From NCBI GenBank assembly GCA_937943575.1, contig CALEAV010000037.1:1-54569 (forward strand): DNA of 54,569 nt, in the 5' to 3' direction. Position numbers and translations under genes: made by a program. Numbering within the stretch: position 1 is the first letter of the stretch; every line of letters begins with the position of its first letter. Shown here one piece after another: positions 21,201 to 45,160 of the stretch. The DNA comes from an uncultured bacterium (GTDB lineage Bacteria > Desulfobacterota > Desulfobaccia > Desulfobaccales > 0-14-0-80-60-11). The notes beneath the pieces were generated by a model that saw only the letters and a list, made by a program, of their open reading frames with translations, had not been told where the DNA came from and ran no database searches.

Positions 21201-21256
21201 GACAATTTTTGACATTTTTATTTTTTCACCAAGGTCAGTTATGTCATATCTTGACA
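21194..21256. repeat. Cluster of TGTCA/TGACA inverted half-sites over the mucR promoter
   Basis: TTGTCAAGACAA (21194-21205) is a palindrome covering the -35. TGTCAA (21195-21200) and TTGACA (21209-21214) form an inverted pair 8 bases apart. TGTCA-N5-TGACA (21242-21256) is a further inverted pair at the end of the crp-like gene. The grouping suggests an operator for a dimeric regulator such as the neighbouring Crp/Fnr protein, or autoregulation by MucR. Confidence 0.4.
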
Positions 21257-21942
21257 CCCCGGGCGATGTTCTCCAGCAGATGGGGATCCTTGATGGTGAT
21301 GCGGCCCTTTTCTTCGCTGATGACACCCAGAGCCTTGAGACGGGTCAGGGTGCGGGAGAGCGTTTCGCTAATGGTTCCCAGATAGGAGGCCAGGTGAGTT
21401 TTGGAGATATTCAGTTCAATCACCAGGTCCGGGGCCACCTCACCGTGAATTTCCCGGCATTTCTCCAGGATGAAGCGGGCCAGTCGGGCGGAGACCTCTT
21501 TTAGGGACAGATCCTCCAATTGCCGGGTCAGGTGGTAGAGGAGGCGGCTCATGGTGGCCAGCATGTTCCGGGCCAGGCGGGGGGAGGAGGTGAGGAGGGC
21601 CAGAAACGGTCCTTTGGGGAAGTAGAGGGTGCGGCTGTCGCTCAAGGCCACCGCGGTGGCGGGGTAGACATCCTCCGCCAGCACCGCGGCCTCGCCGAAG
21701 GTCTCCCCCGGGCCCACCAGGCGCAGGATGTACTCCTTGCCGTCCGGGGAGCTCTTCATCAGCTTGACCTGACCCGCCAGCAGGATGAAAAAACCCGCGG
21801 CCTCCCGGCCCTCCCAGAAGATGATGGCGTCCTTGGGGAAATCCCGGTGAAGGGCCAGCCTGGCCAGCGCCGCCAGGTCCTCCTCGGTCAGGCCGGAAAA
21901 CAGGTAGATCCGCCGCAAGATCCCCGCCTTGTCCTCTGCCAT
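21244..21942 (-). CDS. Crp/Fnr-family transcriptional regulator
   Basis: 232 aa. An N-terminal cyclic-nucleotide-binding-type beta barrel (about 1-120) is followed by a long dimer helix and a winged helix-turn-helix. The recognition helix GTISETLSRTL has the E-x-x-S-R pattern of the FNR branch. FNR's N-terminal cysteines are absent, and the cAMP-contacting Arg-Ser pair of Crp is replaced (DVYPATAVAL), so neither an Fe-S cluster nor classical cAMP binding is supported. HcpR-like or haem-binding regulators of sulfate reducers are an alternative. It lies upstream of and on the same strand as the MucR gene. Confidence 0.87.
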   Translation of the reverse strand: MAEDKAGILRRIYLFSGLTEEDLAALARLALHRDFPKDAIIFWEGREAAGFFILLAGQVKLMKSSPDGKEYILRLVGPGETFGEAAVLAEDVYPATAVALSDSRTLYFPKGPFLALLTSSPRLARNMLATMSRLLYHLTRQLEDLSLKEVSARLARFILEKCREIHGEVAPDLVIELNISKTHLASYLGTISETLSRTLTRLKALGVISEEKGRITIKDPHLLENIARGVKI

Positions 21943-41422: not shown

Positions 41423-42343
41423 ATGTATCAGATGTACAGGCCAGTGGTCAGTTCCGAAACCGGCGAGCGACTGGGCACCGGCTGGCTGCCGCCCGTCCCC
41501 GATCTGCGGGATTACACCGAGGTCTACCCTGCGGTGGCCGAGCTGGCCAAAAAGCTGAAGGTCCCCCGGGGCCCCGCGGAGCTCAAGGGCCTGCCCCCGG
41601 CGGTGGACCTCCGGGCCTGGTGCTCCCCCGTGGAAAACCAGAAGAGCCTGGGGTCCTGCACCGCCCACGCGGCGGTGGGCATCGTGGAGTATTTCCAGCG
41701 CCGGGCCTTCGGCAAGCACCTGGAGGGTTCCCGGCTCTTCGTCTACAAGGCCACCCGCAACCTCATGCAGGTGACGGGGGACACCGGCGCCTGGCTGCGG
41801 AACACCATGGCCGCCCTGGTGCTGTGCGGGGTGCCGGAGGAGCGCTACTGGCCCTACACCGACAAGGACCCGGACTTCGACAAGGAACCCCCCAGCTTTG
41901 TCTATGCCATCGCCGACAACTATGAGACCCTGACCTATTTCTGCCATGACCCCCAGGGGGCCAATCTTCCCGGAAGCGAAGTCCTGGCCAGCGTCAAGAA
42001 GTATCTGGCTGCGGGCATCCCCGCCATGTTCGGCTTCTGGGGCTTTCCCTCCTTTGAAAGCACGGACGTCAAAGGCGGCATCCCCTATCCCTGCCCGGGG
42101 GAGAAGGCGGAGTGGGGCCACGCCGTGGTGGCGGTGGGCTATGACGAGGCCAAAAAGGTAAAGAACACCAAATGCAACAAGACCACCACCGGGGCCCTGC
42201 TCATCCGCAACTCCTGGGGCACCACCTGGGGGGACAAGGGCTACGGCTGGCTTCCCTATGACTACGTGCTGAGCAAGCTGGCGCTGGATTTCTGGTCCCT
42301 CCTCACCATGGGCTGGGTGGACAGCGGCCAGTTCGGGCTCTAA
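41423..42343 (+). CDS. Papain-family (C1) cysteine peptidase, cytoplasmic form
   Basis: 306 aa with no signal peptide. Catalytic residues: oxyanion Q73, nucleophile C79 (NQKSLGSCTAHA), H233 (WGHAVVAVGY) and N263 (RNSWGTTWGDKGYGWLPYDYV). The N-terminal RPVVSSETGERLGTGWLPPVPDLRDYT segment is typical of bacterial C1A-like proteins with little or no propeptide. AAAAGGAGG precedes the ATG by 6 bases. It is only distantly similar to the secreted C1 peptidase at 24472. A terminator-like hairpin separates it from the cyclase gene. Substrate unknown. Confidence 0.87.
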   Translation: MYQMYRPVVSSETGERLGTGWLPPVPDLRDYTEVYPAVAELAKKLKVPRGPAELKGLPPAVDLRAWCSPVENQKSLGSCTAHAAVGIVEYFQRRAFGKHLEGSRLFVYKATRNLMQVTGDTGAWLRNTMAALVLCGVPEERYWPYTDKDPDFDKEPPSFVYAIADNYETLTYFCHDPQGANLPGSEVLASVKKYLAAGIPAMFGFWGFPSFESTDVKGGIPYPCPGEKAEWGHAVVAVGYDEAKKVKNTKCNKTTTGALLIRNSWGTTWGDKGYGWLPYDYVLSKLALDFWSLLTMGWVDSGQFGL

Positions 42344-42411: not shown

Positions 42412-43251
42412 ATGACCGAGAAGCTGGATATCGTCCAGGCCATTGAACTGGCCATCGCCCACGAGCTGGAGGCCCGGCGCAGTTACCTCACCCTGGCGGA
42501 GGAGGCCGACGATCCGGAGCTGAAAAGACTGCTCATCGAGATCGCCCAGGAGGAGGCGGGCCACGAGGCCAGCCTGAGGAGCCGCCTGAGGCTCTATGAA
42601 CAGAAGCAGCTCCTCCGGGAGACCATCTGCCGCTACGTCAGCGACCGGGTGGTGGAGGAGATCCTGAAAAACCCGGAAGCCCTGCGCCTGGGGGGGGAGC
42701 GGCGGCATCTGACGGTGCTCTTTGCCGACATCAAGGGCTTCACCACCCTCTCGGAGACCATGGACCCGGCCCGGGTGGTGGAGGTCCTGAACGACTACTT
42801 CACCGAGATGGTGGACCTCATCTTTGCCCATGAAGGCACTCTGGACAAGTTCCTGGGGGACGGCCTCTTTGCCTTTTTCGGGGCGCCCCTGGCGGTGCCC
42901 CGGGCCGCCAGCCAGGCGGTGGCCTGCGCCCTGGCCATGCACCGGCGCCTCAAAGAGTTGCAGGCTGCGGGCCGGACCCCCATCGCGGGGATGCGCATCG
43001 GCATCAACACCGGGGAGGCCATCGTGGGGAACATCGGCCATGCCCGGCGCATGGACTTCACCATCATCGGGGACATGGTGAACGTGGCGGCGCGCCTGTT
43101 GGAGGTGGCCCGGGACCTGGAGGCCGGCATTGTCATCAGCGAGGCCACCCAGCGGGAGGTGGCCGGGCAGTTCGAGACCGTGCCCGGCCCGGCGGTGGTG
43201 CTGAGGGGCCGCCGGGAACCCACGGTGAGCTTTCTGGTGCCGGTGGCCTGA
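42412..43251 (+). CDS. Half-ferritin-like domain fused to a class III adenylate cyclase
   Basis: 279 aa, cytoplasmic. Residues 5-62 form two predicted helices with E18 (AIAHELEARRSY) and E48-x-x-H51 (EEAGHE), the metal ligands of rubrerythrin/ferritin-like diiron sites but in a single half-domain. A signalling helix (65-95, RYVSDRVVEEILKNPEALRLGGE) leads to a complete cyclase catalytic domain: metal-binding D106 and D150, base-recognition K146 and D221, transition-state N224 and R228. These point to ATP as substrate. Dimerisation, needed for cyclase activity, would also bring two half-domains together to build a four-helix diiron site. It lies directly upstream of the sat promoter. Confidence 0.85.
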   Translation: MTEKLDIVQAIELAIAHELEARRSYLTLAEEADDPELKRLLIEIAQEEAGHEASLRSRLRLYEQKQLLRETICRYVSDRVVEEILKNPEALRLGGERRHLTVLFADIKGFTTLSETMDPARVVEVLNDYFTEMVDLIFAHEGTLDKFLGDGLFAFFGAPLAVPRAASQAVACALAMHRRLKELQAAGRTPIAGMRIGINTGEAIVGNIGHARRMDFTIIGDMVNVAARLLEVARDLEAGIVISEATQREVAGQFETVPGPAVVLRGRREPTVSFLVPVA

Positions 43252-43297: not shown

Positions 43298-43326
43298 TTG
43301 ACATTCCCCGCCATCTAGTCTAATTT
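43298..43326 (+). promoter_or_regulatory. Promoter of the sat-apr operon
   Basis: TTGACA (43298-43303, perfect -35), 17-base spacer, TAATTT (43321-43326). An A/T-rich block at 43276-43296 just upstream resembles an UP element, as expected for a strongly expressed operon. Predicted start about 43333, leaving a leader of about 170 bases before sat. Confidence 0.7.
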
Positions 43327-43350: not shown

Positions 43351-43366
43351 TGTGAAGAAATTCACG
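43351..43366 (+). promoter_or_regulatory. Crp-type palindrome in the sat leader
   Basis: TGTGA-N6-TCACG matches the Crp/HcpR consensus TGTGA-N6-TCACA at 9 of 10 positions, with extra symmetry (GTGAA-N4-TTCAC). It lies roughly +19 to +34 relative to the predicted start, a position that would suit repression. In RNA it could instead fold into a GAAA-loop hairpin. Confidence 0.45.
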
Positions 43367-43504: not shown

Positions 43505-44782
43505 ATGGAAATGATCGGCCATGGTGGGAAACCACTGGTAGAACGGGTCATTGCCGACAAAACCGAAGCCAAGAAGAAGATCGCCGGCCTGAAGACCATG
43601 CCCGCCAGCCGGCAGATGGCCACCGAGTGCATCAGCATCGGCTACGGCTTTTTCTCACCCTTGGAAGGCTTCATGAAGCGGGCCGACGTGGATGCGGTCT
43701 GCAAGAAGATGGAGCTGGCGGACGGCACCCTGTGGAGCATTCCCATTGTCTTTGACATTTCGGACAAGGAGATCGCCGACTACGGGGTCAAGGAGGGGGA
43801 GAGCATCCTCCTCACCTATGACGACAATCCCCTGGCCATCTTCGAGGTTGAGGAGATCTTCACGTATCCCAAGGACGAGATGGCCTTTGACGTCTATGGC
43901 ACCAAAGAGGACAAACACCCCGGGGTGGCCCGGACCTATGCCTACAAGGACAAATTCCTGGGGGGCAAGATCACCCTGGTGAACGAGCCCAAGATCCGGG
44001 AGCCCTTCACCCCCTACTTCCTCACCCCGCGGCAGCACCGCATGAAATTCAAGGAGCTGGGGTGGCAGCGCATTGTGGCCCACCAGACCCGGAACGTGCC
44101 CCACTCGGGCCATGAGTGGCTGATGAAGCACGCCTACATCGCCGCCCACGGCGAGCTGCCGGTGGAGTCCATGGAGGTCATCGGCAAGGCCATCAGCGGC
44201 GTGCTGGTGAACTGCATCGTGGGCGAGAAGCGGGCCGGGGACTACATCGACGAGGCCATCGTCCTGACCCAGGACGGCCTGAAGAAGCACGGCTACTTCC
44301 GGGAAGACATCCACATGACCACCATGACCTTCTGGGATATGCGCTATGCCGGTCCCAAGGAGGCGGTGCACCACTCCATCATCCGGGCCAACCTGGGGCT
44401 CACCCACCACATGTTCGGCCGGGACCACGCCGGGGTGGGCACCTATTATGAATCCTACGAGGCCCACCGCCTGCTGATGAGCATCCCCCGGGAGAAGCTC
44501 TTCATCACCCCCATCTTCGTGCTGGAATGGGTCTATTGCCCCCACTGCGGCGAGGTGACCTGCATCGGCCTGTGCGGCCACTGGAATGAGCACCAGAAGT
44601 TCAGCGGCACCAAGATCCGCTCCATCCTCATCGACGAAGTGAAGCCCACCCGGCTCATCTTCCGGCCGGAGATCTTTGACATCGTCATGGACGCGGCCAA
44701 GAAGTACGGCTTCGGCTCCCCCTTTGTGACGCCGGAGTATCTGGCCAAGGCCAAGCCGGCCTTCAGCATCGAGCCTCTCTAA
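43505..44782 (+). CDS. sat: Sulfate adenylyltransferase (ATP sulfurylase), dissimilatory type
   Basis: Makes adenosine 5'-phosphosulfate and pyrophosphate from sulfate and ATP in the cytoplasm. It is the homo-oligomeric single-chain enzyme: 425 aa with the active-site segment HQTRNVPHSGHEWLM (QxRN and HxxH equivalents) and GRDHAGVGTYYESYEA. The C-terminal Cys-containing VYCPHCGEVTCIGLCGH region can bind zinc in SRB enzymes. GAAAGGGGAT precedes the ATG. First gene of the sat-(111 aa)-aprB-aprA unit. Confidence 0.97.
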   Translation: MEMIGHGGKPLVERVIADKTEAKKKIAGLKTMPASRQMATECISIGYGFFSPLEGFMKRADVDAVCKKMELADGTLWSIPIVFDISDKEIADYGVKEGESILLTYDDNPLAIFEVEEIFTYPKDEMAFDVYGTKEDKHPGVARTYAYKDKFLGGKITLVNEPKIREPFTPYFLTPRQHRMKFKELGWQRIVAHQTRNVPHSGHEWLMKHAYIAAHGELPVESMEVIGKAISGVLVNCIVGEKRAGDYIDEAIVLTQDGLKKHGYFREDIHMTTMTFWDMRYAGPKEAVHHSIIRANLGLTHHMFGRDHAGVGTYYESYEAHRLLMSIPREKLFITPIFVLEWVYCPHCGEVTCIGLCGHWNEHQKFSGTKIRSILIDEVKPTRLIFRPEIFDIVMDAAKKYGFGSPFVTPEYLAKAKPAFSIEPL

Positions 44783-44824: not shown

Positions 44825-45160
44825 ATGGCAGAGACATACCCCATCAACATATGGATCAACGAAGAGCGCTTCAAAGAGCTGCAGGCCGCCGGCCTGGCGG
44901 ACCTCCTGAAGGAGGAGCTGGCGGGCATGAAGGTGCTGGCCGTGCCCTGCACCGCCGAGGAGCGGGACAAGGTGCTGAAGCTCTTCCCCATGGCGAAATT
45001 CGATGCCGCCACCACCAAGTCCATTGAGCTGTTGCCCAAGTATGTCAAGGACAAGATCTACGAGATGGTGGTGAAGCGCAAGAAACTGCAGGTCATGAGC
45101 GAGTTCTGCCAGCTGTTCGAGAAGGCGGGGGACGCCTTCTGGAACCAGGAGATCGCCTGA
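44825..45160 (+). CDS. Uncharacterised 111-aa protein between sat and aprB
   Basis: GAGGAGG 7 bases before the ATG and codon use like its neighbours argue for strong expression. The protein is soluble, helical and Lys/Glu-rich: NIWINEERFKELQAAGLADL, a strand-turn around MKVLAVPCTAEERDKVLKLF, and KSIELLPKYVKDKIYEMVVK. Two cysteines (in VPCTA and SEFCQLF) do not form a motif. It lies 42 bases after sat and 109 before aprB on the same strand. It may assist the Sat or Apr enzymes, but no family is recognised. Confidence 0.8.
   Translation: MAETYPINIWINEERFKELQAAGLADLLKEELAGMKVLAVPCTAEERDKVLKLFPMAKFDAATTKSIELLPKYVKDKIYEMVVKRKKLQVMSEFCQLFEKAGDAFWNQEIA

Follow-up and report, generated by a model that had tools for sequence, protein, structure and literature searches.

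The window, by which we mean the whole stretch of DNA that was analysed (54,569 nucleotides), contains a gene whose product joins a half-ferritin to an adenylate cyclase in a single chain (FtnAC; Table 1), and the locus raises the question of what a ferritin-like domain does in front of a signalling enzyme. Half-ferritins described so far are encapsulin cargo and relatives of storage ferritins. The best explanation is that FtnAC is a soluble class III adenylate cyclase with a half-ferritin of the EncFtn/EncB type as its N-terminal input domain and, as far as sequence and models allow, we hold the identity of the half-ferritin and the intactness of the cyclase to be established with very little doubt. 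The initial annotation of this locus, made from the letters, knew of no described cyclase with such a sensor; likewise, no published description of a ferritin-like or rubrerythrin domain fused to an adenylate cyclase or a sensor kinase was found in a search of the open-access journal literature, and absence there is not proof.

Table 1. FtnAC, its domains and ligand residues, and the features upstream of sat (window positions).
Feature	Position	Strand	Basis
FtnAC (half-ferritin/adenylate cyclase fusion)	42412..43251	+	279-aa ORF, ATG start; Pfam Rubrerythrin and Guanylate_cyc
Half-ferritin hairpin, residues 6-62	42427..42597	+	PF02915, E = 8e-8; AF2; Foldseek
E18 (= EncFtn Glu32)	42463..42465	+	Gapless profile alignment, ligand list, invariant
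Y25 (= EncFtn Tyr39)	42484..42486	+	Gapless profile alignment, ligand list, invariant
E48 (= EncFtn Glu62)	42553..42555	+	Gapless profile alignment, ligand list, invariant
H51 (= EncFtn His65)	42562..42564	+	Gapless profile alignment, ligand list, invariant
Stalk and transducer, residues 63-95 (last part of helix 2, helix 78-86, then an LGG motif ahead of the catalytic domain)	42598..42696	+	AF2 model
Class III catalytic domain, residues 96-276	42697..43239	+	PF00211; Foldseek to 6fht, 2w01, 3r5g, 1wc1
sat promoter-like TTGACA-N17-TAATTT	43298..43326	+	Read from sequence; TTGACA at 43298, TAATTT at 43321; kept in family loci
Palindrome TGTGAA-GAAA-TTCACG (TGTGAAGAAATTCACG), probable Rex (NADH) operator	43351..43366	+	3' of the sat promoter, before sat
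sat (ATP sulfurylase), at the head of the sulfate reduction genes 3' of FtnAC	43505..44782	+	PF01747, E = 5e-66

Input and output domains of FtnAC

A Pfam search of the N-terminal region, as had been proposed initially, returned Rubrerythrin (PF02915) at 33.1 bits against a gathering score of 22.8 (E = 8e-8, hmmscan), with residues 11-67 of FtnAC matching positions 3-61 of the 137 in the profile, i.e., its first half. No Hemerythrin domain was found among the Pfam matches listed up to E = 10. The best ferritin-type matches in NCBIfam were two encapsulin cargo families, EncB_fam (2.6e-8; 33.9 of 90 bits) and ferrit_encaps (1.9e-7; 31 of 125 bits), which like EncFtn-like (14.7 of 27 bits) stayed under their curated cut-offs. 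In the AF2 models the chain provides two helices only and not a complete four-helix ferritin domain, and at the C terminus, where encapsulin cargo carries a targeting peptide, FtnAC has its catalytic domain. When residues 1-77 were modelled alone, AF2 gave a helical hairpin (pLDDT 93), for which the first 12 Foldseek matches in the PDB were all encapsulated ferritins (EncFtn/EncB/EncC), and the hairpin superposed on EncB (7s5c) at 0.5 Å over 54 residues. VIA-align placed many unrelated helical hairpins at the same Z, and a proof of the half-ferritin by fold alone was dropped because these fit equally well. Since the fold by itself is not decisive, the assignment rests on the sequence profiles and on the ligand pattern.

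In EncFtn of Rhodospirillum rubrum, two irons are bound through Glu32, Tyr39, Glu62 and His65 of two chains (PMC5012862). A profile built from FtnAC and its relatives aligned with this protein (Rru_A0973) without a gap, profile positions 12-58 falling on residues 28-74 (offset 14 in window numbering), and the four EncFtn ligands fell on E18, Y25, E48 and H51 of FtnAC. The 30-residue distance between E18 and E48, initially given as that of EncFtn, proved correct, both from the gapless alignment and from the published positions of Glu32 and Glu62 (PMC5012862). The profile match above cut-off and the complete, invariant ligand set likewise bear out the reading of the N terminus as a two-helix ferritin-like half-domain closest to encapsulated ferritins. 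EncFtn (Rru_A0973, 5da5; PFC_05175, 5n5e) and EncB/EncC of Myxococcus share with FtnAC the two-helix half-ferritin and the Glu/Tyr/Glu-x-x-His ligands at identical spacing, but they are free-standing encapsulin cargo, whereas the second helix of FtnAC runs on into the cyclase. The iron exporter MbfA and the two-domain rubrerythrins of PF02915 (2fzf) have ferritin-like helical pairs related in sequence to that of FtnAC; they are full four-helix ferritin domains or membrane transporters and, unlike FtnAC, have no signalling output.

The remainder of the protein matched Guanylate_cyc (PF00211) over residues 99-274 (89.3 bits against a cut-off of 21.9, E = 3e-25, hmmscan). The full-length AF2 model (pLDDT 87, pTM 0.79) consists of helices 4-31, 35-72 and 78-86 followed by a class III fold, and its best structural matches by Foldseek were a phytochrome-cyclase chimera, Cya2, CyaB, CyaC and photoactivated cyclases; the stalk and transducer of FtnAC align with the pre-catalytic segment of the chimera (6fht). 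In the alignment, every complete sequence has the metal-binding aspartates D106 and D150, the adenine pair K146/D221, and the transition-state residues N224 and R228 unchanged. In class III cyclases, these metal, adenine-pair, Asn and Arg residues are the marks of an active adenylate-type enzyme, and because all six are invariant, FtnAC is expected to be one. In the guanylyl cyclase Cya2 (2w01), Glu takes the place of K146. All of the residues named initially (E18, E48-x-x-H51, D106, K146, D150, and D221) lie where they had been placed, and the description of a complete class III cyclase of the adenine type agrees with the PF00211 match and with the presence and invariance of K146/D221 and D106/D150. 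bPAC (5mbb), OaPAC (4yus), CyaC (1wc1) and CyaB (3r5g) resemble FtnAC in catalytic fold, catalytic residues and the short helical transducer between sensor and catalytic domain; their sensors are BLUF, GAF, PAS or similar domains, and among these cyclases only FtnAC has a ferritin-like one.

Distribution of the fusion and of half-ferritin kinases

An orthologue of FtnAC is present in 28 of 29 genomes of the sulfate-reducing Desulfobaccales, that of the window included, and among the carriers is the cultivated type strain Desulfobacca acetoxidans (ASRB2; fusion gene at G024:C1:1494322-1495131, L028); the single genome in which it is missing is 84% complete. Within the order, the orthologues are 62-99% identical to the query and extend from its residues 2-6 to residues 272-279, except for one that ends at a contig end. 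A further copy was found outside the order, in a genome that belongs to a different family of the phylum (G137, the record that also holds locus L037), perhaps through transfer or mis-binning. Beyond Desulfobaccales and this genome, no other cyclase fusion was found in 395 genomes sampled from the phylum, and no relative of FtnAC was found in IMG/VR or PLSDB. Two 688-aa frames (L113 and L114) that match the cyclase from residue 6 were set aside as response-regulator cyclases that have no half-ferritin. The survey of cyclases with this architecture and of their neighbours that had been suggested initially thus gives the 28 genomes of the order and G137, with sat adjoining the fusion gene in one family only (see below).

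In an alignment of 28 orthologues, full-length or almost so, E18, Y25, E48 and H51 are invariant. Loss of the ligands in close homologues, which the initial annotation had named as evidence against its reading, was looked for and not seen, as all four are kept in 28 of 28 sequences. The half-ferritin is also, judged by sequence, the most constrained part of FtnAC: mean pairwise identity is 80% for residues 6-62, 73% for residues 63-95 and 66% for the catalytic domain. Because 31 of the 57 half-ferritin positions are invariant across this alignment, the invariance of the ligands is in itself modest evidence, and it spans a limited divergence (one order and one further genome of the phylum).

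The search of the phylum brought up, in addition, a 340-aa protein that carries this half-ferritin ahead of a histidine kinase. Such fusions were found in three genera (3 of 8 genomes) of one other family of the phylum, at loci L107, L108 and L122 (G109:C32, G074:C26, and G278:C70), and each has the layout of a soluble histidine kinase. Rubrerythrin, HisKA and HATPase_c were over the Pfam cut-off in all three, the four ligand residues are present with the same spacing in every one of these diverged sequences, and a profile made from the kinase version retrieves the cyclase version in turn (E around 1e-9). The kinase fusions are an independent second case of the module and, as the best and the only independent support for it, point to the half-ferritin as a portable sensor domain. 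We tentatively extend this to a broader proposal, in which EncFtn-type half-ferritins would be a portable sensory module of bacteria: depending on metal, two chains would build a symmetric diiron site that gates signalling enzymes working as dimers, namely the adenylate cyclases of Desulfobaccales and the histidine kinases of a second family; this general form may well be right, although we would not yet favour it. At locus L078, a short NifU-like frame lies on the minus strand 5' of a half-ferritin kinase, at about 1820 (between 1977 and 1737); it is interrupted by one TGA directly after a Cys of the cluster-binding motif and could be either a selenocysteine gene or a broken one.

A proposed metal site between chains and its alternatives

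Metal-controlled cyclase activity is, on balance, the best explanation for FtnAC, as judged from its sequence and predicted structure. EncFtn is a monomer when metal-free and assembles on Fe(II), and also on Co and Zn, its diiron site sitting within an antiparallel four-helix bundle (PMC5012862). By analogy, the half-domains of two FtnAC chains would meet around metal, most likely two irons; this assembly, or oxidation of the site by O2 or peroxide, would be relayed by the unbroken helix 2 and the transducer to the catalytic dimer, whose altered geometry would set the cAMP output. A half-domain whose metal site is completed only with a partner chain is well suited to act as a switch: metal governs whether it assembles, and its assembly in turn governs signalling enzymes that work as dimers. 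As Fe(II) drives the assembly of EncFtn, iron availability would be the likeliest stimulus of FtnAC, with oxidant sensing second.

The initial annotation had proposed that dimerisation of the cyclase could itself assemble the diiron site, and in this simple form the idea found no support: the antiparallel bundle of EncFtn and an unbroken helix 2 do not suit one dimer with straight stalks. In the AF2 model, helix 2 continues without a break to residue 72, about 21 residues or roughly 31 Å past H51. Taking the helix length from this single-chain model and the arrangement from published EncFtn, an antiparallel pair of FtnAC chains would send out its stalks in opposite directions with some 60 Å between them, whereas adjacent stalks are what the catalytic dimer requires. 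Because straight stalks cannot serve both the site and the catalytic dimer, either a bent stalk or a dimer of dimers is required. We favour a dimer of cyclase dimers, in which the stalks would cross antiparallel and two diiron sites would clamp the tetramer, because the predicted helix is continuous and shows no break, and this arrangement would suit a histidine kinase dimer equally. In the alternative, the stalk would bend near residues 62-72 within one FtnAC dimer.

Among described systems, the closest in concept are the diiron sensors of the hemerythrin family, DcrH, Bhr-DGC and Bhr-HD-GYP (PMC9388753), which share with our reading of FtnAC the use of a diiron input domain for signalling, in anaerobes among others. 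Their fold is different and their ligands (five His, one Glu, and one Asp) lie within one chain, whereas the site of FtnAC would, by analogy with EncFtn, be shared between chains; their outputs are chemotaxis and c-di-GMP (PMC9388753), and that of FtnAC is predicted to be cAMP. If the favoured reading is true, FtnAC would be a direct switch from iron or oxidant to cAMP, unlike known heme, hemerythrin or Fe-S sensors, and the fusion would couple the iron or oxidant state of strict anaerobes to cAMP, a molecule whose roles in such organisms are little known. The idea is directly testable, as the protein is small and present in a cultivated type strain.

Since hemerythrin-type diiron sensors answer to O2 or redox state (PMC9388753), and Zn and Co oligomerise EncFtn as well (PMC5012862), the half-ferritin might sense a different ligand or metal (nitric oxide or zinc, for instance) or else just the NO/O2 state of a permanent diiron centre. 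We consider this unlikely, though worth keeping in mind, as the ligand set of FtnAC is that of an iron ferroxidase centre and nothing in the gene neighbourhood points to zinc or NO.

It is also conceivable that the half-ferritin acts as an enzyme, for example as a ferroxidase or peroxidase, or serves to handle iron, with the cyclase just reporting turnover or tethered to it for some other reason, so that iron chemistry rather than iron binding would matter. EncFtn is a ferroxidase (PMC5012862), and the genome of the window also encodes rubrerythrin relatives, so that diiron peroxide chemistry is used there. We nevertheless give this reading a rather low probability: the module also occurs on a histidine kinase, which fits sensing better than catalysis, and small N-terminal domains as a rule regulate soluble class III cyclases. 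Such regulation is established for the photoactivated cyclases, which are the closest complete structures to FtnAC.

Finally, the hairpin fold is generic and other soluble cyclases carry plain helical stalks, so the half-ferritin could be a mere dimerisation or stability module that keeps ancestral residues but binds no metal. This is improbable given that none of the four ligands varies among 28 cyclases or is lost from the three diverged histidine kinases, and that they are buried charged residues which in EncFtn, as judged by mutagenesis, destabilise the assembly unless metal is bound (PMC5012862).

Gene neighbourhood and a candidate cAMP effector

Downstream of FtnAC follow sat and a DUF6955 gene, both identified by Pfam, and then genes which we take, from reading their sequences, to be aprB, aprA and qmoABC. 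The fusion gene lies outside the sat operon, since a 253-bp gap holding the sat promoter separates the two; the -35 hexamer starts 46 bases past the stop codon of the fusion gene, much as the initial annotation had it (about 45 bases), and the promoter-like sequence is absent from the listing of a strict promoter scan. Inspection by eye 5' of the fusion gene revealed no conserved operator, and the gene seems to form a transcription unit by itself. In one family of the order (f1), sat lies directly 3' of the fusion gene in all 18 loci with enough sequence. In the second group (family f2 and G137), it is next to the fusion in none of the six loci read, and the sequence 3' of the fusion in f2 reads as other genes, e.g., a TsaA-like ORF. 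As sat adjacency is limited to f1, the neighbourhood is not needed for FtnAC function. The placement of the fusion beside the sulfate reduction operon, to which attention had first been drawn, therefore stands for the window and the f1 loci, but the functional link is weak, as f2 has sat elsewhere, and a functional tie to sulfate reduction by synteny was rejected.

The palindrome between the sat promoter and sat is kept as TGTGAA-N4-TTCAC in 18 of 19 sequences (window plus 17 loci) with sat after the fusion gene; in the form TGTGAA-N4-TTCACA, just 3' of the sat promoter, it is highly conserved in the window and the intergenic regions of loci L034-L058. It equals a consensus that was once assigned to HcpR (PMC545781), and Rex has been reported to bind sites identical to that consensus (PMC5701242); in Desulfovibrio vulgaris, Rex represses sat in response to NADH (PMC7531388). 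On the basis of this literature and of a Rex gene in the genome of the window, the palindrome is probably a Rex operator; as such it would be no part of the fusion mechanism and no evidence for a cAMP circuit.

That the cyclase controls sat-apr-qmo through cAMP and a Crp-type protein bound at this palindrome is very improbable, for although sat follows directly in 18 of 18 f1 loci, nearly all of which have a palindrome of the TGTGA-N6-TCACA type, and the window encodes a Crp/Fnr-type regulator (21244-21942), the palindrome has the form TGTGAA-N4-TTCACA, the genome encodes Rex, which is the NADH-responsive repressor of sat in D. vulgaris (PMC7531388), HcpR-type factors recognise this consensus independently of cAMP (PMC545781, PMC5701242), the cAMP-pocket arginine is missing from the Crp-type protein of the window (PATA instead of the Arg-Ser/Thr of cAMP binders), and family f2 keeps the fusion while its sat sits elsewhere. 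The candidate role of the palindrome as a cAMP receptor site is overturned by the Rex and HcpR literature, the Rex gene and this altered pocket.

Three proteins with a cyclic-nucleotide domain are encoded in the genome of the window, of which the Crp-type protein is one and another is degenerate. The remaining one is a membrane protein that combines a cyclic-nucleotide domain with rhodanese and MauE (G000:C2:55654-57090, L089) and has the pocket motif FGEVALVTGQPRTAS. Each of the 29 Desulfobaccales genomes encodes it, the FGE...PR(T/S)A pocket is kept in all 10 of the proteins examined, and within the phylum sample the complete fusion occurs only in Desulfobaccales, with split forms (separate genes) elsewhere. 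These split forms are also found in families that have no FtnAC, which counts against an effector role. By its pocket sequence and distribution, this protein is the best candidate for the cAMP effector.

Some further features of these loci were recorded. A gene for a papain-family (C1) cysteine protease lies directly 5' of the fusion gene (window 41423-42343) and, among the compared loci, occurs only in the genus of the window. In several genera (L043, L046, L049-L054, L056, and L058), sat has been swapped in place for a version only about 30% identical to that of the window; at these loci the operator and the apr/qmo genes remain, and no match is obtained for the DUF6955 gene that in the window separates sat from aprB. 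Where sat of the window type is kept, the DUF6955 protein (window 44825-45160, between sat and aprB) is 76-96% identical.
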